Source of the DNA: Oehlia diaphana
Taxonomy: Eukaryota > Glomeromycota > Glomeromycetes > Glomerales > Glomeraceae
Assembly: GCA_003833135.1 (NCBI GenBank)
Contig: QZLH01000195.1
Location: 20,302-84,301, forward strand
DNA length: 64,000 nucleotides
Reading direction: 5' to 3'
Shown: positions 8,322 through 58,811 of the stretch, one piece after another
How positions within the stretch are numbered: the first letter of the stretch is position 1
How the letters are laid out: each line of letters starts with the position of its first letter
Made by a program: the position numbers and the translations under genes
The notes under the pieces: model-generated
The model's database searches: none
Told to the model about the DNA's origin: nothing
The model's input: the letters and a program-made list of their open reading frames with translations, nothing else

Positions 8322-8419
8322 TTTGAAGTAAAATAAAAACTGTGAAAAATGGTTCGTATGTTTAGAAAAAAAACTAAATCTGGATTGAAAAAAAATTTGC
8401 AATTAGCCCAAAATATAAA

Positions 8420-21275: not shown

Positions 21276-22991
21276 TCATTTTATTTTAGGACCAGAGGCA
21301 GATACAGTAGGTAAAGCAGGATCACCATGTACTCTGAAACGGTAAAGACAAGTATATTCAGGTTTACCCCAATTACTAATTATTTTCATGATGATAGCTC
21401 TTATAGGTTTGTTATACTTTAGAATATGGTCTGGTACTTCAAAAGTTTGTATGGGTAAACCATTAATATCATAAGTAAATTTACCCAAAAATAAATGACG
21501 AGGGGAGCTACCCAAATGTAATTCGCCATTAGTATCAATTTCTAAATGATTCAAATGACTTAATCCATCATCATATTGATCATCATCTCTTCTTCCACAT
21601 GTATCTTCAGTTGATTCCATTCGTGGGCTGAAATCTACGCCGAAATCCTCATCATTATCATCATTTTTACTTACAGTCCCATCATCAATGATTCCCCACA
21701 CTTCAAAATCTTTTGGTGCAGATAATACATCATCTGTAGCAATGTCTTTACTAATGTGATCATAAGTAACAGCTGTAACAAAAACTTTTCTATCAAGAAA
21801 TATTGCCAATTGACCCTCTTGACCAGAAAGTGGCCAACATTGACCAACATTAGTATCATGAGAAATTGCTGTTACCGGAGGTTTACCACGAGTGATACCT
21901 TTACCGGTAACATAAGCGAGAGTTTTTTTATACCATTCATTAGGCCATTGTTCATAAGTTTTGCTAGTATATTTAGAGATAATTTTTGCACCACCTGAAT
22001 GTAAAGCGAAATCACGTCTATTAAGTTTATCCTGAGAATATTTTAGTAATTCTTCTTTAGCAACTTTACGTGCTTCATTACGTATTAATTCCACCGCTTT
22101 TTCATCTCTCGTAGAACCAAACTTTCTAATTGAAGTTTCTTCATCTCTGGAAGAACCTCTCCTTCTAACTGGACTTTTTTTACTATCTGATGATACAATA
22201 TTTTTAATTTCGTCCCTTATTAAAGCACGTAAAGGTTCATTCGATATTGAAGATAAATGTAAATGTTTACTATTCTCAGAATCCATATAATTTTTAACTT
22301 CAGCTATAATCATTTGTTTAAAATCTTCCAAGGTGACTACAATACTATCATTCACATCTTTTTTTTTTTCACCGATCGGTTGAATCTTATAAGTTTTACC
22401 ATCAATAGCCCAAATATATATTCTACTTGATGAAAAGTAATCCATAAAAGATTTATTTTCTTGTTCAACGTTTGAAAATGTTAATAATAATAATACAAAT
22501 AATACTACAAAAATAAGTATCCATCTATTTCTCTTATTCCCAATTAAATTATTCCAAACGAAACTGATTATACTTAAACATATGAAAGATAAACCTCTTG
22601 AATTATTATTATTATTATTATTATTATTTACGGCGACACTACGATCAGTAGGTATATTAGGAACGGATTGATTTATATCATCATTATCAATAACGTCATC
22701 AACATTATCATTATCATTATAATTATTATTATTATTAGAATTAAATATTGATGGTTGTGAACTTTCTAATTGTAAACGTCCATAGAGTTCTTCAGAAAAG
22801 GGATTTTTTTCCTGTGAATATATATCACTTGTAGGGGTAGGACGTTCTCTTAAATATGCTGTATATTTTTGAGAACCCAAAGAAATTTGAGAGCTTTGAG
22901 ATCCTTGAGAACTACCATTTCGTCTACTTCTTGATCTTTTAGGAGTTGCTGGTGGTGTCTGTGGTTCCGATGATTTACGTCTTGCCGGCAT
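21276..22991 (-). CDS. SUN-domain inner nuclear membrane protein
   Basis: Intronless, 571 residues. SUN proteins sit in the inner nuclear membrane and bind KASH proteins across the perinuclear space, forming LINC bridges between chromatin and cytoskeleton. Order seen: basic Ser/Pro-rich nucleoplasmic head (1-80), Asn/Asp-rich stretch (84-130, including a run of nine Asn), hydrophobic segment 134-150, strong membrane helix 157-172, a luminal linker with charged helical parts (about 220-330, repeating SSRDE-like and STRDE-like pieces), then the SUN domain about 336-568 (SGGAKIISKYTSKTY start, GQCWPLSGQEGQLAIFL core, YTCLYRFRVHG end). The Asp/Asn insertion at about 450-490 (DGTVSKNDDNDEDFG) enlarges the domain. 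The start ATG at 22991 is the first in frame. Sad1-like role is inferred from the domain. Confidence 0.95.
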   Translation of the reverse strand: MPARRKSSEPQTPPATPKRSRSRRNGSSQGSQSSQISLGSQKYTAYLRERPTPTSDIYSQEKNPFSEELYGRLQLESSQPSIFNSNNNNNYNDNDNVDDVIDNDDINQSVPNIPTDRSVAVNNNNNNNNNSRGLSFICLSIISFVWNNLIGNKRNRWILIFVVLFVLLLLTFSNVEQENKSFMDYFSSSRIYIWAIDGKTYKIQPIGEKKKDVNDSIVVTLEDFKQMIIAEVKNYMDSENSKHLHLSSISNEPLRALIRDEIKNIVSSDSKKSPVRRRGSSRDEETSIRKFGSTRDEKAVELIRNEARKVAKEELLKYSQDKLNRRDFALHSGGAKIISKYTSKTYEQWPNEWYKKTLAYVTGKGITRGKPPVTAISHDTNVGQCWPLSGQEGQLAIFLDRKVFVTAVTYDHISKDIATDDVLSAPKDFEVWGIIDDGTVSKNDDNDEDFGVDFSPRMESTEDTCGRRDDDQYDDGLSHLNHLEIDTNGELHLGSSPRHLFLGKFTYDINGLPIQTFEVPDHILKYNKPIRAIIMKIISNWGKPEYTCLYRFRVHGDPALPTVSASGPKIK

Positions 22992-25655
22992 ATGTTATAT
23001 AATAATATATAATATTGGTAAACGATCTTTATAAAAAACCTACAATTGTAGTAGGTTTGGTGGCAATGTAGTAGGTTACTACTGAAAAGTGTCTTATTTT
23101 TTTTTTTGAACGGAAAGAGGAGAGGGGAAAGAAGATCTTTTTTTTTTGTACAAGAAGAAAAAATTTTTTAATCGATTTATTTTACTTTTATATATATACC
23201 GTTCTTTTTTTTTTAAAATAGAAAAAAAGAAGATAAAAAAAAAGATGCCTTTTTTTATATACAGATGAATGAATGGCTGATGAATACCCTCTTCCCCTAT
23301 TAGGTTTTATATGTCTTTTTTTTTTATTAAATGGCGAACGGACACAATTGTGTACTTTATAAAAGGTTATTACTTAAACCCTTAAACCCTTCACACTAAT
23401 TACTTAACTAGGTTGTAGATTAAATCATAATTAAATAATATAAGCAGTATAATGGAGTTATTATAATAATAATAATATATAAAATATACATAGTGTAGTG
23501 CACTGTATAATTGTTTATCAGCAAATGTGCAAATGTACAAAATGTACAGCAGCATCGAGCACTTTGCAAGTACAGTAATAAAGGATGAATAGCCGAATAG
23601 ATTGAACAGAAAGAATGTTATATGATATAACTATACGTTTGTTACTTTGTTTAAATAATAGAACATTATTATTAGGGGGGGTTTGGTAATTGAACATATT
23701 TAGATGTAATGTATTTCGTACCAACTTTCTCTACATTTGCATTTCATTTATTAGATTGTTAAAACTTTGAATTTTGTAACACAATCCGCTAAAAAGAAAT
23801 TTATTTCTTTTTGGGAAAGAACAATAAGTAACTATTCTAAAAATAACAAAGAGAAAAAAAAATTTTTTCTTTTCGCGTTTTTTATTAAAGTTTACCGTAC
23901 CTTGTTTCAAACAAAAAAAAAAATAATCTAATAATTTGATTATTGATATTGTGTTTGTTATATAACATCATTGATTACACTATGATTACTTCAAAAAGAA
24001 AAATTCGGTTGATACAAAATAAAAAAAGGAAAATTATTATTATTTTTTTTTGATTAACCTTGGTTAATCGGATAATTCCCAATTCTTTTAATACTAATTG
24101 TAAAAAAAAAAAGCGCGACACTTTGTTTCACATGTTAAAGAATCGAGAATTTTTTTTCATACAATTTAAAAGAACAAAAAAAATTTCTCATATATATATT
24201 ATTACAATAGTAAAATGAGTACAATCGATACATATGCATACATTTATATATTTTTTCCTTTTTTTCATAATGATTTATTAAAGGGGAAATTGGTTTATTC
24301 CTTTTACATATTAACTTGTTCCCTTTTGATATTACTTTACACGCCGAATTTGGTATATATTTCTTTTAAAGATTATTCTCTTCTTTTCTTCCAAAAGAAA
24401 AAAAGCGAAGATATGATATGACGATTAAATTCTTATTTTGTCTTTATAGATGTAATTAGATGTAGTACTTCTGTCTCAGCCGGTTTGTGATCACGTGCAA
24501 CCAATCATTTTTAACCTGCTTTTTGCATGCAAACCATATGTATAATCACGTGATAAATGGTCAAGTGTGTAATAGAATAATAAAAGATTTTTATTGTATA
24601 AATGGCTAAATTATTCTGGTAATTTTTTTTTTTAGATTTACAAATTTATGCAATTTTTCTTATAATTTATAATTTATATTTCAGATAATTAAATCACCTC
24701 TTCTTAAAAGTTTTTAATTTTAAATAAATACTAAAAAAAGCAAAATTTTGTCAATTTTTTTAAATTTTTTTTTTTTAAAAAAAATTTTAGTTTTATATAA
24801 ATATTAAAAAATTTTAGAAATATTTATTTATAATTATATAAACATAATACTTAAATATATAGATTCCATAGTAAAATTTAGAAATTGGTAAAATTAGGAT
24901 TAAGATTAGAATTAGAATAAAGTTGCTTGTCAAAAATAAAAAGGTTATTACTAAAATAATAAAAATAATTTTAACATTTCAATATAATGAAATGATGAAA
25001 TTATTCTATTATTAAAATTAACCAAAATGCAAATATTAAAATAGAAAATAATTTTATCAATTTTAATATGATGAAATTCATTAATTTTGGCAAGCAACTT
25101 TAGATTAGAATAATTAAACTTAGAAAATATGACAAAAAATAATTATTTATTAATTGCTATAGTATTGCTACTATATAATAATAAATAATAGAACATATCT
25201 CAAACATTATTAAAAAACTTAGATCTGAATTTGTATAAACTTTATAATTAATTTCTGTTCCAAATGTATAAAGTTATATGTAGATTTTAGCATAAAATTT
25301 TGCTATCTTGGGATTTAATAATTGGAGTTTAATAATCTTTAGCTTGTTAGATTTATCTCAATGAGACGAACATTTTAATATATAATTCATTTTTTAGGTA
25401 TAATATTGATCAAGATATCGCATTTTAAAATTTTAGGATTTGAGTTATTTTAATAATGTTTAGAGTCCTAGTAGAATTCAAAAACTTTTTATATAATATT
25501 TTTTTTCTATAGAAATCTGATTTTTAGATTTTTTTTTAAATTTTCAAAATTTAATAGTAAAAAATAATTTAAAAAATTTATAAATTATTTTTAGCTTTTT
25601 TTTTCTATTTTTTTTTTCAATAAAAATACTTTTTAAATAAAAAAATCCAATTGAT
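22992..25655. other. AT-rich gene desert upstream of SUN gene
   Basis: No gene seen. Just upstream of SUN, GTAGTAGGTT occurs twice (23049 and 23070). A pair of CACGTG palindromes lies at 24491 and 24546 around a CATGCAAACCATATG word. GGTTATTACTAAAATAATA and related words suggest decayed repeats near 24960-25090. Short frames here have no domain. Confidence 0.5.
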
Positions 25656-33992: not shown

Positions 33993-35965
33993 CTACTCTT
34001 TCCTTGTGGCACCATATTGTATTAAAAGTTTCTCATTCATTGGGCTTAAACCATTTACATTTTTAATACGTGCATTATATGTTGTTAACGCTGATTGATA
34101 AGGAACCCAACGTAATTTAACTTGTAACTTATGACCATCTTGACCATCTTGACCATCTTGTTCTATCTGCCAGTAACGATAAAATTTATTTCCATTACCA
34201 ACATTTTCACTACTGTTAATTGTGTGTAGAAATAATCCTTCTGATGTCTTATTCCATGCTATATGAGATACACAACCTATAAAACCTCGAATAACTGCCA
34301 AGGATTTACTGTCAGATGATGCTGACCATATACGTACAGTACAATCACGACTTGCTGATGCACCATCAGGAGAAAATTTAACATCACATATTATATTTTT
34401 ATGCTCATCAAAAATTTTCTGTGGTTTGTTAGAATCCTTTATTGACCATAAAGTTACTGTATAATTCCATCCTCCTGTTATAATAAATTCATTATCAGGA
34501 GAAAATGCAACGCATTCTATGCAGGGTCTCTCGTGACCGAAAGATATTTGATGATTAAAGGTTGCCAATAATTTTCTCTCTTTTAGTGACCATAAACGCA
34601 CGGTATTATCCCAACTTCCTGAAGCAAGTAATTCTCCATCAGGTGAGAATGATACACAGTTAACTTGCCATTCATGCCCTCGAAAAGTATGAATCAATTC
34701 TCTTTCTTTCACTGAAAATAGTTTTATGCCATAATAATTTCCTAAAGATCCTCCCTCAATCCAAGGTCCTGCTGCAATGAATTCACTATTCGGTGAAATT
34801 GAAAACAATTAACATTCTGGTGATTCTTTAGCTTCAAAAGTAAAAAAATGGATTTTGATTTTCTTTTGTAGATAGATGAATAAGATTATCTCTTCCTAAG
34901 ATAATAAATTTACCATCAGGTGAAAATGCAGGCCAATAATCTGATGAATGAAGACCTCGAAGGATGCCAAAACTGTCAACAATCCATTCCTCATTTGGAG
35001 AAAATAATTCATCATTGATTAAAACTCGTCCTAAACTATGTGTGAATTTTTCTTTATTTTTTATTGACCATAGACGTATTTTTCCATCAATACCTCCTGA
35101 CGCAACATAATTACTATTACTTGAAACACTAGTAACTCTATCAGTATGTCCACAAAATACATATAACAACTTTATCTCTTCTACTGACCACGACCATGAA
35201 TTTACTGTACAACCCCAACTTCCTGATATAATACTGTAAGTTCACCATTAGGTGAAAATAAAGTGCATCTTTATATGCTTTAAATGTATGTAACAATTTT
35301 CTCTCTTTTATCGACCATAAGCAAATCATACCATTTTTACTTCCCGAAACAATAAATTCATTATTTGGAGAGAATGAAACACTGCTAACACCACCATTAT
35401 GTCCTTTAAACGCGTGTACCAATTTTTTCTCATTTACGGACCATAAATAAACCATATTATCCATACTACCTGAAACAATGAGGTTACTATTAGATGAAAA
35501 TGAAACACTGTTAACATTGCCTTTATGTTCTTTAAATCCATGTAATAGTCTTTTCTCTCTTACGGACCATAAACGAACAGTACGGTCTCTACTTCCTGAA
35601 ACAACATATTTACCATTAGGTGAAATCGAAACACTTAAGATTTTATCTGTATGTTCTTCAAAATCTGCAAATTTTTCATAAGTGAATGATTCTTTATTCC
35701 TATTTATCCAAAGACCAATAGTATTGTTCCATCTCCCTAAAGCTATTAATGATCCATCTGATAATATTGAAACAGAAGCCTTCCAGCTCAAATCATTTAC
35801 ATAAACATATCTATCTAATTCACCGTATGATCTCCATATTTCTTTATAAGTTTCAGCATTATAAAGTATAATAGTGTCTCTAGTAGCTCCTACTAAAAAT
35901 TTTTCATTTTGGGAATAACAGCAAGAAATACCACCATGATCAGCTTTATGATAACCGGTATCCAA
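33993..35965 (-). pseudogene. WD40-repeat part of a decayed chimeric gene
   Basis: Three overlapping frames (35965-35141, 35169-34834, 34808-33993) hold at least ten WD40 repeats. Each has the pattern H-x-G/D-x-V-x-S-V-x-F-S-P-x-G-x-x-I/V-A/V-S-G-S-x-D-x-x-V-R-L-W-S (for example SISPNGKYVVSGSRDRTVRL and SFSPDGELLASGSWDNTVRL). Frame changes occur near 35150-35240 and 34810-34840, and one is needed to join the preceding pentapeptide segment at about 35991. WD40 propellers act as ligand or partner sensors in NLR-like proteins. Part of the same minus-strand gene as the next three entries. Confidence 0.85.
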
Positions 35966-35990
35966 GTTTTTTAATACTAAAAAAGGATTT

Positions 35991-36206
35991 TCACCAAATT
36001 CTGTTCGTCATGTTAGCATGATTAAAATTTACTCTTTGAAGCCATGCTCCTTGTAAGTGGACATTTCTTAAATCGGCCCCTTGAAATTGTGCATGATCGA
36101 ACATCCCATAACTAAGATCAGCTCCCGGTATACGGACCCCATTTAAGTCAGCTCCTTTAAATTGCACTCCAGCTTTAACTAGTAATGTGATGCCATTGGC
36201 TGCCAC
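35991..36206 (-). pseudogene. Pentapeptide-repeat segment of the chimera
   Basis: Reads AANGITLLVKAGVQFKGADL, NGVRIPGADLSYG, FDHAQFQGADLRNVHL and QRVNFNHANMT: consecutive A(D/N)LXX-type pentapeptides forming a right-handed beta helix. From memory, this order (AANxITLLVxAGVxF, pentapeptides, then WD40) is typical of NACHT-domain proteins of Mortierella and Rhizophagus. A short deletion after ANMTN breaks the frame into the WD40 part. Confidence 0.8.
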
Positions 36207-36890
36207 ATTTGAAAAGATTCATCAGTTTTTGAGCGTTTTATGAATTCATGTAACTGATTCTTAAATGATGATTCCTCCTGAATGCGCTCCGCTAAAAATT
36301 GAATAACTGATTGTTCACCCAAGGGCTTAAGTTTATTTATTATAGCGTCTGCTTTGAGGAACTCCTGTTGAATTTCTTCTGATTCATTAATATCTTCATA
36401 AATGGCATGTGCCACAAAATACTCCAATAAAGAATTATATAAAAAGGAATAGTGATTATTATTACGAAACAGGTACATATTATATAATTTCTTAAATAAT
36501 TCGGAAGCTTTGTCATAATTTTTATCAATAATTTCTCCCTCTTTAAACATAAGAGCAAGATTACGCAGAGCCACATTATGTCCTAAATTAGCTGCTTTTT
36601 CATATAATTCAAATGCCTTATACCTATCAACGCTAGTTCCGATTCCATTACTATAACAATATCCAAGCATAAATATTCTATTTAAATATTCTCCTTTATA
36701 AGATTCTTCAAATAATTTAAAGGTTTTTTCATAATCTAAATTAACACCTTCACCCGTTTTATACATTTGAGCAGATTATATTGAGCTATACTATTCCCTA
36801 ATTTTCCGCTTTCTCATAAATTCAATAGCGTTTTCCTTATTAATCTCGGTACCAATTCCTAAATAATTAAAATTTCCAAGTAAAAAGATA
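36179..36890 (-). pseudogene. Sel1 repeats running into an NLR-type C-terminal segment
   Basis: Sel1 (TPR-like) repeats are visible: MYKTGEGVNLDYEKTFKLFE, LGYCYSNGIGTSVDRYKAFE, LYEKAANLGHNVALRNLALM. They pass without a break into SFLYNSLLEYFVAHAIYEDI and later SVIQFLAERIQEESSFKNQL, wording I associate with the stretch following the NACHT ATPase in fungal NLRs. Before 36766 a frameshift and stops interrupt an earlier Sel1 repeat (SIFLLGNFNYLGIGTE follows a TAG). Confidence 0.75.
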
Positions 36891-36892
36891 GA

Positions 36893-38380
36893 CTAATTCG
36901 AATCCGAATCATGTTGATTATTCATTAACCAATCATTAATTTTGCAGCAATCATCAAGAATATTTTCTTTCAACTCCTTCCCTTCATTTAATTTCATAAA
37001 AATATATTTGAATATTCCATTAATTATATTACTTAACGGTGTTTTTAAACATTTCACTAATTCAGATGTAGCCAAATTACTAAAACCAGTAGAAGAAGTA
37101 GAAGAATTAATAATATTATCTGAATTAAATGATTGTTGTTCAGTAGTATTATTATGTACAATATCTTCCGAATTATCTGTTTGATCATTTCTTATGGTTT
37201 CATGAGATAATAATAATTTCAATTGATCAACCACTTTATTCATAGTTGGACGATTATCTGGTTCTCCATTCCAACAATCTATAAAAAATTAATTTTTAGT
37301 GTAAATGTTGAAATAAGGATGTTTGAAATTATTATATATACTTACCAGTATAAAGCTTAGTATAAGCAATAGGAGTATCAGGAACAGGTGTTTCTCTAAA
37401 ACCTTGTGAGATTCCCATAATCAAACTAATATCATATGGTTCATAATCATTCCGCTGGACATTTCCCATAATAATATCCCAACACTATAAAAATCGCTTT
37501 TTTCATTTAATTAGTATATTTGTATTTGATTTTTATCATTTTTATGTCTATAAAACCTTTTTGGATCAATATAAGGAATCATTCCAGTTAATAGTATCGA
37601 TAATCCAAAATCTGCTAACTTAATAACATTATTTTGATGAACTAATACATTACCGGAATGCTAATAATAATAATAATAATTAATATATACAGTAGATAAA
37701 AGTCGTAAAATATATGTAATGGTAATTATTAACAATTAATGATATAATATAAATTATCTTACCAAATCACGATGAACAATTCCTTCATCATGTAAAAAAC
37801 CACAGCATAAGCCAATTGAAGTGCTAAATTGAATTTATCATCCCAATTGAGATTACTAAAATATTCCTTCAAAAAGTTTCTAAGAGTACCGCCATCGGCA
37901 TACTTCATTACTAATATATAATTTTTATCTAGTTAAGAGAAAATTTTTTTATATTGATTTTTTTATATAAGAGTGATACATATATCGGTATTATTATATA
38001 TTAATTATACCTTGATCAGTTGTAATTCCATAAAAACGAATAATATTCTCGTGAAAATCAACTTCACGTTGATGTTTAAGCTAAATCATATAAATAAAAG
38101 ATAATGTAATTTACAACTCGAAAAAAAAATAACAATCCGAAATATTAATGATAAATAAATTAATTACCTCTTACATAATTTCTTTAAATACTGCGGTATC
38201 GTGATTAAAAAAAGATTTTAATGCAAAATATCTAGGAGCATGTTTCTAATTTGCACGGAATACTTTTCAGCACCAATTACTTTAATATTAGAAAAATGTT
38301 CATAATCATAATATTTAATATGTTGTTTAGAAATAGCTTCATTAATCCATTCAACCCATTCATCATTTTACATGATAATT
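36893..38380 (-). pseudogene. Decayed kinase domain and linker of the chimera
   Basis: Fragments in order on the minus strand, separated by introns: WINEAISKQHIKYYDYEHFS, YILVMKYADGGTLRNFLKEY, a GIVHRDL catalytic loop, HSGNVLVHQNN, KLADFGLS, SVGILLWEMSSG, DNRPTMNKVVDQLK, then a low-complexity linker and LSNIINGIFKYIFMKLNEGK. The HRD and DFG words survive, but the glycine-rich loop is deleted (VIGAEKYS) and at least three indels break the frame (near 38240, 37795 and 37465). The 5' end is missing. This kinase-linker-Sel1 order is the usual layout of a large Rhizophagus kinase family. Confidence 0.8.
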
Positions 38381-39626: not shown

Positions 39627-41345
39627 TCAATCAACGATTTCGCAATCCAAACAATCAACAGTATTATTAGATTTCAGAGAACCTTTTATAAAGATTTAGA
39701 AATTGATGTGAATGACTTAAATAATTAAAATAATTAAGTAAAGATTTTAAATACCTGGATATTCTATGCTTGATATATTATCATAATTACTATAATAATC
39801 ATCAGAATTTTTTGGTTTAGGAAGATTTTTAAAACTAAGTAATTTACTTGTAGTTGCTTCAAAATTTTTATTTGTTGAAGGTAATTTATCATCGGTTGAT
39901 AAACTATCATTTATTCTTTCTGCTTCTTCAACTTGTTTAACTATTTCTGTTTTAATTGATTCTGTTTGATTTTCTATACTACTTAAATGTGCACTAAGTT
40001 CATGAATCCATTTAAAAATACTTTTTGCAAGATATAATGCATTTGGTCGATTTAACGGATTTGCATCTAAGCAGCTTTTAATTAAATGTAAAATCAACTG
40101 AGGTACTTCAAAATTAAATTTGGGTCTTAAACCTTCACAGATTCTTAATGCTAAAACTCCATCATCATTATTATCATAGTAAGGTGGCATTCCTGAAATT
40201 ACCTCATACATGATTATACCAAAACTGTAGATATCAGAAGCTTGAGTATAATGTTGTCCTCTTAAGATTTCAGGAGCTAAATAAGGTAAAACACCATATA
40301 CACTATTTTCTATATTTTCTAATTCCTTATAATTTACTGGTTTACACAATCCCATATCAGTTATACAAATATTACTCCTAAAGCATACAATATTTCCAAT
40401 ATGTAAATCTCGATGAATTAATCCTTTTGCATGAATTCTCTTAAGTCCAGATATAATTTCTCCTAAAATAACAAATTTATATCTCAATTTATAATCAAAA
40501 GTAAAACTTTTACGTGGTTTTGGACGTCGTCGAGACTTTCTAATATTATAATAATTTCGCAAATTTCCGCTGTTTGCATATTCCATAACCATGATATAGT
40601 CTTTTGTATCTAGATTTTGAGTTATTCCATAACATCTAATAAATTGACTTATTGATTTATCTTCAAATATTTTAAGATGTAACGTAATCTAATTAGTTAA
40701 AATAAATTAATTAAAAATTTTATTAAAAAAAAAAAAAAATTTTAATCGTAAATTAATTAATACCTCATTGATAAATTCTAATGTAATATTCTCTGATTTA
40801 TTTAAACTTTTAAGAACTACATCTTTATTTGGTTTATGTCTTTTCCATTTATGTTTATTCACATTCCAATTCGATATATAATTGTCTTTCCATTTTGCTT
40901 TATATATTTCGCCAAATCCGCCTGTTGCAATATGTTTAATATCATGAAATCTATCATAAGATATCCATTCTAGTAAATGATATTCACTCTTTGCTGATAG
41001 TTGAGTATTTTGAATGAACTTATCAACATCATTATTACCACTAGTCCAATTACTAAAATTTTGTTGGAACCTTTTTGAATTACATGTCTGACACCAATTC
41101 AGTCCAGTATTTAATTGTTTGCATTCTTTACACGTTCCGTACTTTTTTTCTCTAAAATTGTCATAACAAATATGACAAATTGTTTTCCCCCTATCTATTA
41201 GTTTTACTTGTTTGCATTCTCTACACTTTTTATAATTTTGTTCTTTTATATTTGAATCACAAGCCTGACACAAGAGTGATGTGTCTACTTGTTTACATCC
41301 CATACACTTTCCATGTATTTGTTCTTCCGCATATGACTGATCCAT
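39627..41345 (-). CDS. Protein kinase with N-terminal Cys-pair repeats, intact
   Basis: Exons 41345-40764, 40688-39755 and 39682-39627; phases 0 and 1; 523 residues. N-terminal 105 residues hold three zinc-ribbon-like units with paired cysteines (CMGCKQ..CQAC, CRECKQ..CHIC, CKECKQ..CQTC), followed by the family word RFQQNFSNWTSGN. Kinase domain about 135-435: GGFGEIYKAKW loop (ATGGFG; first Gly replaced by Ala), K179 in VVLKS, HRDLHIGN with D288, DMG (305-307) instead of DFG, LAPEILRG, DIYSFGIIMYEV. Asp residues for catalysis and metal are kept, so activity is plausible. The tail has a Lys/Glu helix, then LPKPKNSDDYYSNYD, and a small last exon ends in CLDCEIVD. Most like fungal TKL-type signalling kinases; substrate unknown. 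First of three minus-strand paralogues (with 52470-54135 and 55121-56595). Confidence 0.88.
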
Positions 41346-42520
41346 AGTAAATTAGATAAAATTATTATTCAATAATAATTTGACACCAAAATATTGCTAA
41401 AATCATGAAGGGACTGAAGGGTGGTATTTATAAAAAAATGTTTTAGATCGACAATCGACAAATGAGATCTAGAATGGACATATTTTTACAGGATTTACAT
41501 CATTATCAACCAAGTTAAAGAAACTTTTCATGATAACTATGGAATCAAACGACATTTATATATTCAATGGTAAACTTGCATCATTATCAACCGAAATGGG
41601 AAAAATTTTATGATAAGATTTAGTCCAATTGTTAAATCATTAGAACGACATGTCCATTTATAAATCTAAGAGGGAAAATTGCAGTACAGAAAAAGTAAAG
41701 TTCGAATTTTCGTGATAGTAAGATTAATATAGAACAATATTTATTATTATCGTTATTATTATTTTGTTTATTAGTGTGATCGAAAATTGAAATATTTTTA
41801 ATTGTTTTAATAATTTGGATAAAAAAAAACTTTGTTTATATAAAGTTAATATGAACAACACTAACTTTTTAGATTGACTGCTTTCCTATGTACAGTATAT
41901 GTGTTGAAAAAATTAAGAAAAAGTGAATTGTTGATGAAAATTTGATTGTGTAACCAATTAACTTCAGACTAAAGTTTGTTAACTAACAACAAGAATGTAG
42001 TTAAATATTAATTAAGTCTTTTAGATTTTGAATATAAATATTTAAAATATTTAATTTTGGCATTATTAATTTCTTTAGGAGTGAAATGAATGAAAAGAAT
42101 ATAGAAACATATGTCCTTTTTTGAATTAAATGCAGAATGAAATATATATATATCTGTAGAAATTTTGATAATAAAAAATTTAATCAAGATGAATCTTTTG
42201 TGCATAAATCTGAATAAATGTAAAATCAGATATAAATAAACTTGATAACTTGTCTCATTTGAAATCTCAATAAATTTTAGATCTAATAATTAATAATCTT
42301 TGGACATTAATATATGCGCGAAATTAAAAATTTTTTTTTTTTAATGATTTATATATGCTTTATTGATATTTAGTTTATATACTATACAAACAAATTATCA
42401 TGAACTATATCCACCCAGTAGGATGCAATCATCAAAATCGCGAAATTAAAAATTGAATAATCGGGATAACAATTATAGATAAGGAATAATAAGGTGAACA
42501 AATCGTTACTATTTGTTTCT
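41346..42520. other. Gene-free upstream region
   Basis: Upstream of the kinase. ATCATTATCAACC occurs near 41500 and 41580 within a loosely duplicated block of about 80 bp. No gene. Confidence 0.45.
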
Positions 42521-46299: not shown

Positions 46300-46587
46300 T
46301 TACACAATAGTAGAAAAGGTAGCATAATGATCAGGAGAATAATAGATGCAACCAGATTCTTGCATTTGTTCCACATGAAAAGATGATACATCTGATGATG
46401 GTAAATCGATCTCGCTGGTAGGTGAATTGAAAATATATTTATTGTAATCATTATCTATGTAGCCAATTGTAGTTGGAAAGTAATACATAGATTGATGTGA
46501 TTGAATCAATGCATTAACATCATAATCGTAAGAAGTATTGTTTGTGTCAAATTGATCCATTGATAAGTCATTATTTGGAAAATACAT
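46300..46587 (-). pseudogene. Possible out-of-frame C-terminal piece of the HMG gene
   Basis: Open minus-strand frame (95 codons) rich in Asn, Tyr, Asp and Ser, in the same style as the end of the HMG-box protein it overlaps (YDYDVNALIQSHQSMYYFPT). A one-base shift near 46595 would join it to that gene. Either the true C-terminus is here (indel in this copy or assembly) or it is chance. Confidence 0.4.
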
Positions 46588-47369
46588 TTTGTTGGTAGGT
46601 ATTGATAATAATTATTAATGGTTTCAAGAGAGTTGAAGTGAGTGTTGTATGACGGAATTGCTTGAATATTTTGTGTTGTTGTAATCGAATCATCTATTGT
46701 ATACGAATTTCCATCAGAATGAAAATTTTCTTGCGAAGGAATTCTTAAATGGACTTGAGGATAAAAATAATTCAATTCTGAATACATGGTCGTCCATGCT
46801 GGAGTAGTTGGTGAAGAAGATGAAGGTAAATTATTTAAAGCAGGATTAAACGAATTATTCAGATTTTGATAAGATTTTTTTTGAAGTGTGTTAGTTTTAT
46901 TCTTTGTAATACGAGATTTACTTCGATTTGGTTTATAAATGTAACCCGGATTAAGTTCACCGTGTTCAAATTTTGCTATTTGTGAAAGTTCGGTAAATAA
47001 TTTGTCAATTTCCAGATTGCATTTTTTCCAAACTTCGTTTGCAAGACCGGATACGGTGGGAACCTGAAGCTTTGAGGAATTGATAGCCGCTAGAAGCATG
47101 GTACGAAAGATGATAAATTTATTGGGAAGTCGTGTAGGCTTATCAGATTGCGTTTTGGATTTCTTATTAAAGAAACGATCTTTTATTTCTTGTGTAGTAG
47201 GTACAAGAAAATCGAACTTTGTACCATCGTTCAAGCTCACAATCATTAAACAACGATTATTTATTCGTGAAAAGTCAAGAGTCACATTGTCAACTTTGTC
47301 GGGAGCCAATTTCTTTTCATAGTGACTTGGGTTGGTATCTTGGTTATTTTTTGATTTATATTGCGACAT
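46506..47369 (-). CDS. HMG-box (MATA-HMG type) DNA-binding protein
   Basis: 287 residues from the ATG at 47369 (MSQYKSKNNQ). The frame is open to 47471, but upstream residues are hydrophobic and unlikely. The HMG box spans about 78-152: TRLPNKFIIFRTMLL start, V-x-x-V-S-G-L-A-N-E-V-W middle, LFTELSQIAKFEHGELNPGY, then YKPNRSKSR. Such boxes bend DNA in the minor groove. In Glomeromycotina these proteins form a very large family, some at mating-type-like loci; family membership is recalled, not computed. The C-terminal half is Asn/Ser/Thr-rich with no domain and probably activates transcription (inference). The last about 30 residues become hydrophobic (LTQTILLTIMM), suggesting a frameshift near 46595. 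No introns seen. Confidence 0.82.
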   Translation of the reverse strand: MSQYKSKNNQDTNPSHYEKKLAPDKVDNVTLDFSRINNRCLMIVSLNDGTKFDFLVPTTQEIKDRFFNKKSKTQSDKPTRLPNKFIIFRTMLLAAINSSKLQVPTVSGLANEVWKKCNLEIDKLFTELSQIAKFEHGELNPGYIYKPNRSKSRITKNKTNTLQKKSYQNLNNSFNPALNNLPSSSSPTTPAWTTMYSELNYFYPQVHLRIPSQENFHSDGNSYTIDDSITTTQNIQAIPSYNTHFNSLETINNYYQYLPTKCIFQIMTYQWINLTQTILLTIMMLMH

Positions 47370-47647
47370 GATAAAAAAAAAATTAACTCTACGTTTGTGA
47401 ATGTATGGTTTGTGTGGAAGAAAGTGAGATGTATATATACAAAGTATTACATTTAATGAATCGAAATTCATATTAATTATAGTTATTTTTATTATTTATT
47501 CTTTTATTCACTTGCCATAACATAAAGATTCTGGTGTAACACTCTTTTTTTTTTAAGTGTAACAATTTCTTCAAGACAATAGTATTATTTCTTACCAAAA
47601 TACGTTTCTTCGATAGCGAGATTATCCACACTACAGGCATTTAATTA

Positions 47648-51469: not shown

Positions 51470-52150
51470 ATAAATGTATTTGTAACAGCCTGTTACATAT
51501 CTTATTTGTAACATCCTTTTTTTATTTTTTTTTAATAATAAATTTAGTATNNNNNNNNNNNNNNNNNNNNNNNNNNNNNNNNNNNNNNNNNNNNNNNNNN
51601 NNNNNNNNNNNNNNNNNNNNNNNNNNNNNNNNNNNNNNNNNNNNNNNNNNNNNNNNNNNNNNNNNNNNNNNNNNNNNNNNNNNNNNNNNNNNNNNNNNNN
51701 NNNNNNNNNNNNNNNNNNNNNNNNNNNNNNNNNNNNNNNNNNNNNNNNNNNNNNNNNNNNNNNNNNNNNNNNNNNNNNNNNNNNNNNNNNNNNNNNNNNN
51801 NNNNNNNNNNNNNNNNNNNNNNNNNNNNNNNNNNNNNNNNNNNNNNNNNNNNNNNNNNNNNNNNNNNNNNNNNNNNNNNNNNNNNNNNNNNNNNNNNNNN
51901 NNNNNNNNNNNNNNNNNNNNNNNNNNNNNNNNNNNNNNNNNNNNNNNNNNNNNNNNNNNNNNNNNNNNNNNNNNNNNNNNNNNNNNNNNNNNNNNNNNNN
52001 NNNNNNNNNNNNNNNNNNNNNNNNNNNNNNNNNNNNNNNNNNNNNNNNNNNNNNNNNNNNNNNNNNNNNATAAATGTATTTGTAACAGCCTGTTACATAT
52101 CTTATTTGTAACATCCTTTTTTTATTTTTTTTTAATAATAAATTTAGTAT
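51470..52150. other. Assembly gap bounded by identical 81-bp sequences
   Basis: N's occupy 51551-52069 (519 positions). The 81 bases before the gap (51470-51550) and after it (52070-52150) are identical and lie exactly 600 bases apart. This suggests unresolved overlap or a collapsed repeat rather than genuinely unknown unique DNA. The apparent frame across the gap is meaningless. Confidence 0.9.
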
Positions 52151-52469: not shown

Positions 52470-54135
52470 TCAATCAACGATTTCACAATCCAGACATTCA
52501 GCAGTATTGCGAGAATTTTGATAATCTTTTTATAATGGGGTTAAAAATTAATGTAAATAACTTGAACAATTAAACAAAAGTATTTAAATTATTAAATACC
52601 TGAATATACTGGATATACCATACTAGATATATCATCATAATTACTATAATAATCATCAGGATTTTTTGGTTTAGGAAGATTATTAAAATTTAGTAATCTA
52701 CTTGTATAAATAGCTTCAGGATGCGTTTTATTTTTAAAATTTTTAATAGCTGATAAACGATTGTTTTTTATTATTTCTTCAATTTGTTTAATTAATTCTG
52801 TTTGAATTAATTCTTTTTGATCTTCCTTACTCTTTAGGTATGAGTGGATTTCATATGACCATTTAGAAGTAATTCTTGAAAGATCCAATGCATTTGGTCT
52901 ATTTGATGGATCTGCATCTAAACATCTTTTAATTAAATCCAATATTAATTTAGGTACCTTTATATTAAATCTTGGTCTTAACCCTTCACAAATACTTAAT
53001 GCTAAACATTCATCATGAGCAGTATCATAATATGGAGTTAATTCTGAAATAACCTCATACATAATTATACCAAAACTGTAGATATCAGAAGCTTGAGTGT
53101 ATTTTTGTCCTCTCATAATTTCAGGAGCTAAATAAGGTAAAACACCGTACACCAACTGGTTTACACAATCCCATGTCAGTTATACTTATTTTTTCATCAA
53201 AACATACTATATTCCCAGTATGTAAATCTCGATGAATTAAACCTTTTTCATGAATTCTTTTAAGACCAACTGCAATATAATTTAACTTTAAAAATCTTCT
53301 ATTCAACTTATGAAAATTAAGAAAGTTGTTGCTATGTGATCTTCTTTCATTCAAATATTTTCTTAAATTTCCTTTTTTAGCGTATTTCATAACCATAATA
53401 TAATTTTTAGTACTTGGTTCTTGGCTTATTCCATGACATCTAACAACTTGATCTAATTTTTTATCTTCTATTATTTTAATGTGTAATGTGATCTGAAATT
53501 ATTAAATCTAATTAGTAAATAATAAAATGTTTCAAACTTTTTAATTTTAAATTAACTTATACCTCATTGATAAACTCCAATGTAAGATTTTTTGAATTGT
53601 TCAAAACTTTAAGAGCTACGAGTCTATTTGAAGAAATTCTTCGCCATCGATTTTTATTAACATCCCAATGTAATATATTACCATCTTTCCAAGATGCTTC
53701 ATATACTTTTCCAAATCCTCCTTCAGCAATATATTTAACTGCATGAAACCTATCATAAGGTATCCATTCTAATAATTGTTGTTCATTTTTTGCTGATAAT
53801 TGATTTGTTTGAATAAACTTATCTAAATCATCATTACCACTAGTCCAATTATTAAAATTTTGTTGAAATCTTTTTGAATTACAAGTTTGACACCAACCCT
53901 GTCCAGTATTTGCTTGTTTGCATTCTATACATTTTCCATACTTTTTTTCTCTATAATTATAAATACAAGCATAACACCATCCCATATTTATTGACTTTAT
54001 TTGCTTACATTTCATACACATTCCATATTTTTCTTTCAAATTTGAATCACAAGTTTGACATACGAGTGATATACTTATTTGTTTGCATTTCATACATCTT
54101 CCATAATTTTGTTCATAATCACTTGATTGTTCCAT
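52470..54135 (-). pseudogene. Cys-pair kinase paralogue with frameshifted activation loop
   Basis: Exons as in the paralogue at 39627: 54135-53563, 53492-52600 and 52525-52470. Three Cys-pair units (CMKCKQ..CQTC, CMKCKQ..CYAC, CIECKQ..CQTC), then RFQQNFNNWTSGN, GEGG-type loop EGGFGKVYEASW, VALKV lysine, HRDLHTGN and DMG. Right after GLCKPV about 30 nt are missing compared with the paralogue and the frame shifts by one. The reading GVRCFTLF-stop begins here, while the remaining C-lobe (VYGVLPYLAPEIMRG onward to CLDCEIVD) is intact in another frame. As assembled it would give only an N-lobe and catalytic loop. Everything else is clean, so the lesion is recent or an assembly error. Confidence 0.85.
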
Positions 54136-55120
54136 GTTATTTTTCCTAAAAAATTTATTTCAAGAAAAATTCTGCTACGAATAACGAAGAATGGTTTTTT
54201 ATATATTGTTTAGATGATCGATGAGGAATATTTGTAGTAGTAAAGAAAGTACATCGGTTTAGCGGAACCTCTATTTACCCTATCTAGGGCAGTAACATTA
54301 GCCACTCCCCCAGGTAACGATCTTTTTTAACCAATTATATTCAATTATACATATAATACTAATTTCAACCAATAAAAATGTTTAATTTTGTTTCACGTAA
54401 GATTTTGCTTAACTAAAATATTAGCCAATATATTTATGGAACTAAACTTATGTTGGCAATCATTTGTCGATCACATATGACGAATTACTATTGTGTCGGT
54501 CTCATATATATCTCTCTTTAGCTTATTTTATATGGATATGCATCTCGATCAATTCAACAACAAATCATGAATATTTTATAAATAATATAAATCATTATTT
54601 TTTTAAAAAATATTTTTGAATTAAATAAAAGGATTCATAAATTTATTATTAAATATGAATATAACGATTTACGTAGTGTACAGCTCATACAGAAAGTTTT
54701 TACATATATGAAATAAAAGCCGTTCACTCCGTATCATTTTGTTACGAGAATCTGAAATTATTTGCCAAGCCTTATAAAGCAAAATGTAAATAACTTTAAA
54801 AATTTCTTGATAGTTAAAAATGTAATATGTATCGTTTAAGTCTTTGATGCTTCTAACAGAACTGCTCAATTACAAACTGATTTTATTTATGTAAAGAAAA
54901 GTTTGCATGATATTCTATAATCAGTGTTGAACAAAAATTATAAATACAATATTTACCTTTTATAAAAGAAATAAAAAAGAAAAAGAATAGAAAATGTATA
55001 AAAAAAAAAATACTAATAAATCAAAGTTTATGGATTTAACGCATTCTATCATTAACCTTTTATAAAAAATTTAGTAATTAATATAAATAATTTGATAAAT
55101 AAATAAATAAATGAAATAGT
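54136..55120. other. Spacer between kinase paralogues
   Basis: No gene. AATTACAAACTGATTTTATT at 54869 and the text after it match the 3' flank of the kinase at 39627, marking the duplicated unit boundary. Confidence 0.55.
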
Positions 55121-56595
55121 TCATTTAATACCTGAATATTTCATGTTTGATATATCATCAAATGTTTCATAGTAATCATCAGAATTCTTTGGTTCAGGGA
55201 GATTTTTAAAATTAAATGGCCTACTTTTATAAATAGCTTCGGGATGCATTGTAATTGTTAAGGATGAATTATCGGGTAAGGGATTACTATTCATTTCTTC
55301 AATTTGTTCAATTAATTCTGTTTTAATTATTTCAGTTTTCTTTTCTATACACCTGTAATAATTTTTAAAACCTAGTGACCATCCATGAAGAGTCGTTGTA
55401 ATTTCGTTTGGTTCTGGTCGATTTAATGGATTTGCATCCAAGCATCGTTTAATTAAATGTAAAATCAATCGAGGTAATTTAATATTAAATCTGGGTCTTA
55501 ATCCTTCACATATCTTTAATGCTAAATTTTCATCATGAGCGACATCGTGATATGGAAGCGTTGTTGAAATTACTACATACATAACTACACCCAAACTATA
55601 AATATCGGAAGCTTTGGTATAATTTTGTCCTCTTAAAATTTCAGGAGCCAAAGAAGATAAAACACCATACATATTATTTTCATTTTCTAATTCCTTATAG
55701 TTTGCTGGTTTACAAAATCCTACGTCACTTAAACAAAATACATTTTTATAACGCAATACATTTCTAATATGTAAATTTCGATGAATTAGTTCTTTACTAT
55801 GAATTTTCCTGAGTCCAGTTGCAATACATTGTAAGGTATCGATCTTTCTTCTCCACATTTGTAAACTCCAATCTAAATTCATTTTGGACAATTCAGGATT
55901 TCTAAACCAATTTTCTTTAGCATAACTCATAATCAACACATAGTCTTTTGTATTTGGGTCTTGAGTTATTCCATAAAATATATTTGGTGATTTACTTTTA
56001 CGAGTTCTAGCATAAAATGTAATCTGATTTTTTCAATTAAATAAATTAGTAAAATAATAATAATCTAGAATTTAAATTAAATTGATAAATAATAGTTTTG
56101 AAATTATACCTCATTGATAAATTCTAATGTAACATTTTGTGAATTATTCAAACTTTTAAGAGCCACAAAAAAATTTTTTTTACGACCATGCCTTTCCCAT
56201 TGATTTTTACTCGTATTCCAGTATACAATATAACCATCTTTCCAATTTGCTTTATGTACTTTACCAAATCCACCTTCTCCAATATATACAATATTATAAA
56301 AGTTATCATAAGGCATCCATTCAAATATTTGAAAATGATATTTTGCTGATAATTGAGTATCTTGAATGAACTTATCAATTTCTTTATTACCACTAGTCCA
56401 ATTACCAAAATTTTGTTGAAATCTTTTTGAATTGCAAGATTGACACCATTTCCTTCCAGTATATACTTGCAAGCATTCTGTACATCTTTTATGTTTATGT
56501 TCCCGACAAGTTTCACAATATAAAAAATCTGTATCTACTTGTTTACATTGAATACACTTTTGATTTTCTTCTTCTTCTTCAAATTGTTGATCCAT
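55121..56595 (-). CDS. Cys-pair kinase paralogue, predicted pseudokinase
   Basis: Exons 56595-56110 and 56023-55132, with either read-through to the stop at 55121-55123 or a splice (donor GTATTA) to a tiny last exon; about 460 residues. Two N-terminal Cys-pair units instead of three (CIQCKQ..CETC, CTECLQ..CQSC). Kinase domain: GEGGFGKVHKANW loop, K147 in VALKS. The catalytic loop reads HRNLHIRN, so the catalytic Asp (position 245) is Asn. The DFG position reads DVG (262-264), and APE is preserved in SSLAPEILRG. Loss of the HRD Asp normally abolishes phosphotransfer, so a scaffold or regulatory role is inferred. The open frame and helix-rich C-terminus (LPEPKNSDDYYETFDD) are kept, suggesting continued selection. 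Neighbour and paralogue of 52470-54135. Confidence 0.85.
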
Positions 56596-58811
56596 ATCAA
56601 ATAAATTAATTAGTTGATAAATTTTATTGCTGAAAAATATTGTAACGAAATGTCTATATATATATATATTTTCGGCTCAAATGATCATCATTTTTTCATG
56701 GAAACTCAATGCACTAACTAATGCCATTCTTGTTATGATCTACCTCATTACTAACCGAAATAGTTATAAACTTCATTTATAGCAAGAATGAAAAGAATGA
56801 ACCAATGCTTTAAAAATTCATAGAAAGGTTTATTCGAGAAGTTACTAACTTTTTATAGTAAGAATCAGGATAAAAAATAAACAGTGTCGACAATAACGAT
56901 AGATTCCGTTACGGGAAGTTCCCAATATGGGAAAATTGATTCCTTATTTTTTTTTTTACGGATTCTTTTTGACGGAATTAATTTACCGAAGGTTTTAACA
57001 AAGTGAAAAGGTTAAATTAAAAATATAATAAGACGTTCATTAAGCAGTGAATGGTAACACCGATGCTTACGGTGACCTGTGTTACGCAATATTAGTCTTG
57101 TTACTCAAATACTCGTGACTTTATTTAGTCATCATCCGATCCAATTAGATTTGACTTAATTATATTATCACCGAAATAACTTATGCCAAAATTATACCTA
57201 AGGATATCGAAGAGGGATATAATTCTTAGAGTTTTAATTCTTTTTAATTGAACTGAATTCCTTGGGAAATATTGCTGGCCGCAGGATGAGGTAACAATAT
57301 TAATTTTTCATTCTTATTTAGTATTTATTGATTTCTTAAATTCATCTATTCATTTATTTATTTAATAACTTAGTTAATTACATTTTTTTATTCGCGTACA
57401 GTATATATTCGTTCTAATAAAGTTTATTCTGTCAGTTATCATCACGTGAATTTTCAAAGGTAACGAAAAAGAGTCTATTGCATGTTATTTAACAAGTTAA
57501 AAAACGATTTCATCAGTTAAGTCAGTATCACTAATTGCCTAACCACTTGATAATGGAAATATTCATTCTAATTTAGTACGTTAAAGATGTTAAGTTAGTT
57601 GTTTTCTCATCATATATATACGCCACCACGCACCACTTTCGGTTAACTCGAAATTTTTTATGTTTTGTTATTATTCTATAGTGAATGTATTGTTATCAAA
57701 TACGTATTATATACAAAAGTTACATAGGTTTTAACAAACTATTAATTAAACTTTATTTTATCTAGTTTTTAACAATTGCAACAACTAATTAATGGAAAAA
57801 ATGGTAGTGGAAGACGAATTTTAGCTAATTTATAAGTTTATTTTTTGGCCGAAAATTTTGATTCCACCTAACCCTAACCCTAAACTTTACCGTATAGAAT
57901 CAATAACTATACAGTATAGATAATAAAACTTGTACCATACATACAACGAGGGTCATATCATACTCATTATCGGCATGTCGCTTTATAGATAGTCATTATA
58001 AGAATACCAATCTTTTCGTATGATAATTTTATTTTTATATACTACAACGTTAACCTTAATGTTCAGAGGACGCTATTTTTTTACTGTTGTACACGAACTA
58101 TTAAGTTTACAAGAGAAAAAATATATTGATAACGAAATAATCAAAAAATAGAAATAGAAAATTGTGAAGTTGATTGTAAAATTGAATATTATATTACTGG
58201 TTTAAGGTGCAAAATATCAAAGGTATATACAAAGACGAATATGTGGAATTCAAAGAAGAAATCACTAAATATATTCTCACGATAATAATAATTTTACGTT
58301 TAACATTATTTAGCACAAAAGATTTGATAAAAATAATTCAACTTATTTATTATAACAAGAGACTATTCTTATATCTAGAAATGACAATACAACCATGATT
58401 TCAGTTCCAGATTCCAGTAATTAATAACTATCATGGGCAAGGAATTATCCAATACTTAAAAAATGAAATACAGCTAATGATCGCGGGAAAGAAATTATGC
58501 AAATGCTCAAAAAAAAAAATGAAAATATGACTAATCATGAGTCAATAATTCCAGTTCCAGCAGTAGTAGTTAATAGTAATCATAATCATTAGCAAGAAAA
58601 TAACGAGAAGAGTGTTTAATGATCTAAATAATATTAAAAAACAACGCAAGACGGGATTAAATTTACTGAGATCGATTACCTTAAATATTTGTTAACTAAT
58701 AACAAATAAGTTTAAAAAGTTTCATTAAGTTGTTAAGTATTATTTTCGTTAATGTAATACAAAATTTTATTATAGCATTATAACTTGGGCTAAAATTTAT
58801 ATGTTTCTAAT
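56596..58811. other. Gene-free region with short telomere-like word
   Basis: CCTAACCCTAACCCTAAAC at about 57868-57886 is two to three TTAGGG-type units on the minus strand. CACGTG at 57445. Repeated GATAATAATAATTTTA-type text. No gene supported; the frame at 58207-58398 is low-complexity. Confidence 0.5.

Follow-up and report, generated by a model that had tools for sequence, protein, structure and literature searches.

A decayed gene of Oehlia diaphana is probably a copy of a Rhizophagus kinase-Sel1 protein fused to the tail of a NACHT-type receptor

The relevant passages of Dyrka et al. 2014 (PMC4986451) and of PMC9815663 name PKinase as an N-terminal domain of fungal NOD-like receptors (NLRs), and the kinase-bearing receptors of the former keep a central nucleotide-binding domain, WD40 being one of the C-terminal repeats that it names. 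A second group, the NACHT-pentapeptide-WD40 receptors, is found in Mycoavidus, Candidatus Glomeribacter and Mortierellomycetes; a 2024 study (PMC11291939) reports Mycoavidus as the source from which the Mortierellomycetes acquired NOD-like receptors, with a parallel case noted for the Gigasporaceae, and a review states in a section on such genes that their expression in Gigaspora margarita appeared responsive to endobacteria (PMC10197012). Expansions of kinases and of Sel1 proteins are described in the corresponding part of a paper on Rhizophagus irregularis (PMC8647823). Here we analyse a gene on the minus strand of a 64,000-nucleotide stretch of Oehlia diaphana DNA (contig QZLH01000195.1, positions 20,302 to 84,301; hereafter the window), which belongs to a 108.8-Mb genome in 1672 contigs. 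The gene is probably a degenerate copy of a Rhizophagus chimera in which a head, made of kinase, linker and Sel1 repeats, is joined to a receptor tail, made of the LLEYF helical segment that follows NACHT in related receptors, pentapeptide repeats and WD40 repeats, and which may have worked as a sensor kinase without NACHT. With the kinase-bearing fungal NLRs it has in common an N-terminal kinase and, in WD40, one of the types of C-terminal repeat named for fungal NLRs, but Sel1 repeats occupy the position of their nucleotide-binding domain. With the NACHT-pentapeptide-WD40 receptors it has the entire C-terminal half in common, whereas the kinase-Sel1 head stands where these have NACHT and its P-loop. 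Neither this fusion nor the gene models RclHR1_00900001 and GLOIN_2v1482801 were found described in searches of open-licence papers.

Read from about 38367 down to 33996, the gene encodes in order a tyrosine kinase-like (TKL) type kinase, the linker, Sel1 repeats, the LLEYF segment, pentapeptide repeats and WD40 repeats. The initial annotation had listed these domains in this order on one strand, and all of them are present on the minus strand; the limits it gave (33993-38380) and its junction near 36480 were accurate. The kinase domain (37277..38367) is decayed and spread over several exons, with remains of the N-lobe, legible HRDL and DFG motifs and a C-lobe; Pfam matches PK_Tyr_Ser-Thr on two of its unmended frame pieces (3.3e-5 and 5.2e-4, the latter under the curated cut-off), and the pieces are 70-100% identical to residues 7-273 of the R. 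clarus protein P0002. It is followed by the C-terminal end of the kinase and a linker typical of Rhizophagus kinase-Sel1 proteins (36896..37276; 73% identical to P0002 272-409), and by the Sel1 repeats (36480..36892), which resemble P0002 from residue 410 on and give a Pfam match of 4.3e-18 on window positions 36182-36775. That same interval is one stop-free frame of 198 amino acids covering both Sel1 and LLEYF, and 167 of 188 residues (89%) are identical to P0002. Past the seam (36446..36479) lie the LLEYF segment (36209..36445) and the pentapeptide repeats (36006..36215; Pfam 2.6e-13; 89% identical to P0002 637-706). Three WD40 matches on frame pieces (2.6e-39, 2.5e-12 and 1.1e-32) follow, the first of them in a first propeller at 35070..35930 and the last in a second propeller with the C-terminal end at 33996..34950, both with approximate limits transferred from the model of the R. 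cerebriforme protein P0004. NACHT is absent from the Pfam matches of the window pieces.

A protein search with an unbroken version of the LLEYF stretch returned four proteins (of 65 candidates), all from Rhizophagus: P0002 from R. clarus, P0003 and P0005 from R. irregularis and P0004 from Glomus cerebriforme, which we take to be R. cerebriforme. P0002 is an uninterrupted model of 1374 amino acids with the domain order of the window gene, in which Pfam recognises the kinase (32-291), Sel1 and WD40, the precomputed domains add the pentapeptide repeats, and the kinase motifs GTGAFG (glycine-rich loop), ALK, HRD and DFG are legible; kinase, linker and Sel1 are thus found within one protein. P0004 (840 amino acids) starts inside the last Sel1 repeat and continues through the tail, and P0003 (736 amino acids) starts just upstream of the LLEYF segment, so that the seam can be read in both, although neither includes a kinase. 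P0005 (960 amino acids, from a cluster of 7) has a partial kinase and most of the tail, and is without the N-lobe and Sel1. Pieces of the window gene are 82-100% identical to P0005 and 58-100% identical to P0002. On the evidence of these models the fusion is real: head and tail meet within a seam some 34 bp long, and the NACHT ATPase is absent.

The family from which the tail comes can be traced more widely. A search with P0002 residues 572-735 found 103 proteins (of 265 candidates), or 104 with P0003: 4 from Rhizophagus, 11 bacterial (Mycoavidus, Glomeribacter and an endosymbiont of Mortierella elongata), 54 whose names we take to be those of Mortierellomycetes, and 35 without an organism label. 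All 104 match the tail segment, having been collected with it; a kinase is matched in two, both from Rhizophagus. A NACHT-like profile was grown from residues 146-462 of the Mycoavidus protein P0032, in which Pfam confirms NACHT. It matches 97 of the 104 proteins, upstream of the tail in every case, and in 94 of these 97 a P-loop pattern precedes the tail as well; the median distance of one residue between NACHT and tail partly reflects the choice of a seed that extends up to the tail. In none of the four Rhizophagus proteins did profile or pattern detect a NACHT-like region or G..G.GK[ST], and together with the unbroken R. clarus model this upholds the suggestion of the initial annotation that a kinase-Sel1 head stands in place of NACHT. 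Searched in six frames after a first-look filter (15 candidates scored), the genome of the window gave no match to NACHT (PF05729) at E <=0.01, a result that falls short of proof and leaves NB-ARC aside; the same search on 14 control genomes gave a signal in all of them and exceeded the cut-off in 3.

Homology of the tail runs from an FLHKSLLEYF-like motif almost to the C-terminus. Residues 560-1374 of P0002 (815 amino acids) align end to end with 10 of the 11 named bacterial proteins at 29-34% identity and with P0052 at 39.5%. A pattern scan of bacteria and archaea (one genome per species, 84,980 species, two patterns) gave 40 loci; among them the segment was matched from residue 1 only in Candidatus Glomeribacter gigasporarum (L037), from residue 77 in L038 and in no other before residue 40, in a scan that is not exhaustive, as it recovered none of the known Mycoavidus relatives. 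The open frame of L037 reads, by eye, P-loop, FIHKSLLEHF, pentapeptide and WD40. As to class, the chimera has the C-terminal superstructure-forming repeats (WD40, pentapeptide) of an NLR or STAND (signal transduction ATPases with numerous domains) protein, and its kinase would serve as the N-terminal effector or signalling domain, broken in the window copy; a central NACHT or NB-ARC with a P-loop is missing. With the endobacterial and Mortierellomycete family it shares homology from the post-NACHT stretch to the C-terminus, and it lacks the NACHT before that segment. Judged in this way, the chimera is not an NLR, because NACHT is missing; its tail is descended from such a receptor, and its head is a Rhizophagus kinase-Sel1 protein. 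A Sel1 match also occurs in P0062 of Entomortierella parvispora, a WD40 receptor relative of 2327 amino acids with a precomputed NACHT, at the C-terminal end (2208-2314), which on its domain matches is a separate meeting of Sel1 repeats with this receptor family.

How such a protein might work can be proposed tentatively, and we would put the chances of the proposal somewhat below even. Because NACHT is gone, assembly driven by nucleoside triphosphates (NTPs) cannot be the switch, and kinase output may stand in its place. The WD40 propellers and the pentapeptide helix would bind a ligand, the Sel1 solenoid would relay the ligand-induced change toward the kinase, and the kinase, restrained by the tail until then, would begin to phosphorylate its targets. 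The kinase and Sel1 families of arbuscular mycorrhizal fungi are greatly expanded, and one kinase bearing a recognisable putative sensor would offer a testable kinase input; if the protein works in this manner, the sensor half of an NLR-type protein would be acting without its defining NTPase.

The chief competitor of this mechanism accepts the fusion as real and makes of the tail a mere scaffold or localiser for the kinase, the receptor function having gone with NACHT. We consider this unlikely, although it has real arguments in its favour: receptors of this type are known to be switched by NACHT, which is absent here, and WD40 propellers are general binding platforms. In support of the main reading, the predicted structure of the P0004 tail shows the helical segment, the pentapeptide helix and two WD40 propellers at a mean predicted local distance difference test (pLDDT) score of 76, with values below 50 in the first 60 or so residues and in 494-531. 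The initial annotation had correctly recognised WD40 repeats, and its count of about ten may be low given two propellers (blades were not counted). Among solved structures the closest folds are double propellers, with Apaf-1 at Foldseek ranks 2 and 4 (apoptosome 5juy, template modelling score on the query 0.49), and the first propeller by itself is matched best by the WD40 part of PkwA (5yzv), a bacterial kinase-WD40 protein of Thermomonospora curvata, which fits a scaffold as do the further matches to Gbeta, Tup1, AIP1 and ribosome-assembly factors. The Foldseek and VIA matches are mostly to generic propellers and hardly probe the helical and pentapeptide parts. The likeness to Apaf-1, which has two WD40 propellers as the chimera tail does, is generic for double propellers; Apaf-1 retains its nucleotide-binding domain and recruits caspases, whereas the chimera has a kinase. 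The likeness to PkwA is one of WD40 fold, and that protein is not known to have a Sel1, LLEYF or pentapeptide part. Against a mere scaffold stands the retention by R. clarus of the entire 815-residue tail, which is more than a propeller, and the better conservation of the post-NACHT and pentapeptide stretch (49-57% identity to 8 receptor proteins) than of the whole tail (29-34% to 10 of the 11 named bacterial ones). An AlphaFold model of the 198-residue seam piece had a mean pLDDT of 52, with the tail half below 50, and was not used.

The descent of the tail was examined in trees that are unrooted, in which WD40 repeats can misalign and the Rhizophagus sequences are of unusual composition. Every tree has a branch that sets the four Rhizophagus tails apart as a group. 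In the full-tail tree (81 of the 104 sequences kept) they join P0052 (86) and then five more sequences without an organism label (99), and they share their side with seven named bacterial sequences, apart from all 36 Mortierellomycete sequences kept (100). In the short-tail tree (about 160 columns) their neighbours are P0052 and P0037 (90/82), and the branch uniting all 54 Mortierellomycete sequences (96/90) does not include them. Holding Rhizophagus with 29 Mortierellomycete sequences and P0082 on the full tail was rejected by the approximately unbiased (AU) test at p 4.8e-6, a cost of 107 log-likelihood units, in a set of 57 sequences chosen by hand and with a held group named after the earlier trees had been seen; the 24 sequences removed by hand beforehand were 7 Mortierellomycete ones, long branches among them, and 17 without an organism label. 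An initial AU test (p 0.0088) was not used, as the Glomeribacter sequence fell outside the held group. The closest relatives of the tail are therefore, as far as the trees go, probably endobacterial-type proteins, and because of this an exchange of the tail between fungus and endobacterium probably preceded the fusion, in a direction that the trees do not show. The initial annotation had placed the tail with fungal NACHT/NLR proteins: the NACHT-receptor family stands, but it is not solely fungal, being common to endofungal bacteria and Mortierellomycetes, and the full tail is nearer to the bacterial sequences.

We speculate, and hold it for a somewhat more doubtful proposition than the mechanism, that a Rhizophagus ancestor took a receptor from an endobacterium, or shared one with it, lost NACHT and fused the sensing half to its own expanded Sel1 kinase. 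The product would be an inter-kingdom sensor kinase that turns recognition of endobacteria or of other non-self into phosphorylation, kept by R. clarus and on its way to being lost in the R. irregularis lineage. It would be one route by which a fungus may have co-opted a receptor of endobacteria, and the unbroken R. clarus model set beside the broken or partial R. irregularis ones makes a natural comparison.

Several observations pull the other way, both on the fusion and on its descent. A whole kinase is present in only one of the four Rhizophagus models, which could mean either a dispensable head or errors in the partial models, and the evidence from R. clarus is a predicted protein model. 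Three proteins from outside Rhizophagus (P0074, P0104 and P0105) are also without a NACHT-like region by profile, though P0074 is an NB-ARC protein by its source name and the precomputed domains of P0105 contain NACHT. The nearest relatives of the Rhizophagus tails (P0052, P0090, P0092, P0093, P0095 and P0096) are sequences without an organism label, 3 of the 10 named bacterial sequences in the full-tail tree group on the side of the Mortierellomycetes, and the short tail gives no clear rejection of a grouping of Rhizophagus with Mortierellomycetes (AU p 0.056 in a reduced set of 52 sequences, 51 of the 104 and L037; 0.45 with P0037 and P0052 added). The last two of these points, together with the share of Mortierellomycete names among the tail proteins (54 of 104), favour vertical inheritance of the tail from an ancestor common to Rhizophagus and Mortierellomycetes, with the fusion made in Rhizophagus and no endobacterial exchange. 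We rate this as less likely again than a mere scaffold, since the full tail separates Rhizophagus from the Mortierellomycetes, the constraint that joins them is costly, and the Mortierellomycete receptors are themselves derived from Mycoavidus, according to the study cited above (PMC11291939).

The seam of the chimera is also delimited by the genome of the window itself. DNA of 701 bp around it has 83 matches elsewhere in that genome (40 of 261 candidates scored), all on the Sel1 side and none past query position 322, which is window position 36479, while homology of the tail to receptors starts at FLYNS, at about 36445; the seam is thus the interval of some 34 bp at about 36446-36479, which neither the matches to other Sel1 loci nor those to receptors reach into. 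A transposon or repeat breakpoint at the seam was rejected, as the repeated DNA matches among the candidates scored (40 of 261, so that there may be others) are confined to the Sel1 side and end at or before 36479. On the protein level the kinase end, linker and Sel1 have 195 matches, including the window's own, at 34-67% identity (132 of 2103 candidates scored), so that by this count the head is ordinary for its own genome. None of the other kinase-Sel1 loci listed runs past query residue 283, 9 short of the LLEYF letters, and herein the chimera, which continues into a receptor tail, differs from the Rhizophagus kinase-linker-Sel1 family. The LLEYF and pentapeptide parts each have one match in the genome, with no second copy of either found. 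The initial annotation had allowed for functional relatives with the same fusion elsewhere in the genome; these were found in Rhizophagus species instead. It had also named a repeat breakpoint at the junction, or homologues divided into kinase-Sel1 and NACHT-WD40 proteins, as outcomes that would undo it, and the search found neither, the seam lying in an open frame conserved between species. That the chimera is two adjacent genes, or an artefact of gene models or assembly, is highly improbable and was set aside: the window copy is split over many frames and the R. irregularis models start or skip at differing points, but the seam of the window gene falls inside one open frame and is crossed by the models from R. 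clarus and R. cerebriforme, and an unbroken run from kinase end to Sel1 is usual for this genome. Elsewhere the genome encodes a very long Sel1 protein (G000:C742:15802-19269), in an open frame of 1303 amino acids with many consecutive Sel1 matches.

The window copy had been described as decayed, and the damage is plain. Relative to P0002 it has ten frame shifts outside the stretches taken as introns and at least three in-frame stops; the glycine-rich loop of its kinase is illegible and 10 residues of the activation loop are gone, so that the complete set of kinase motifs found in P0002 is wanting. These lesions mark the gene as a pseudogene. Elsewhere in the window, three genes retain open frames of 313 to 695 amino acids with Pfam domains (6318-8402, 21279-22994 and 39750-40688), and the genome-wide list of 140 Pkinase matches has 115 that are free of stops, a count biased to intact copies, as it covers the best 129 of 2632 candidates. 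A general assembly error is for these reasons an unlikely cause of the frame damage. Neither kinase of the window is in this Pkinase listing, which is uninformative given the share of candidates scored.

The second kinase gene of the window lies directly upstream of the chimera (39747-41351, minus strand) with seemingly unbroken frames; it has a cysteine-rich N-terminal part with CxxC motifs and no Pfam match, followed by Pkinase (7.5e-33). Frames that resemble it by eye recur at 52592-54159 and 55121-56676, which suggests a small cluster of such kinase genes within the window. Also on the minus strand are an Ulp1-type protease gene at 6318-8402 (Peptidase_C48, 3.5e-41) and a Sad1/UNC-type protein at 21279-22994 (6.4e-30), each in one long frame. 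A frame of 329 amino acids at 46509-47495, likewise on the minus strand, has no Pfam match at 0.001, but a stretch of it looks like a MATA-type HMG box such as Rhizophagus is known to have. At about 51550-52060 there is a run of N, either an assembly gap or withheld sequence, which is flanked on either side by the same short sequence.

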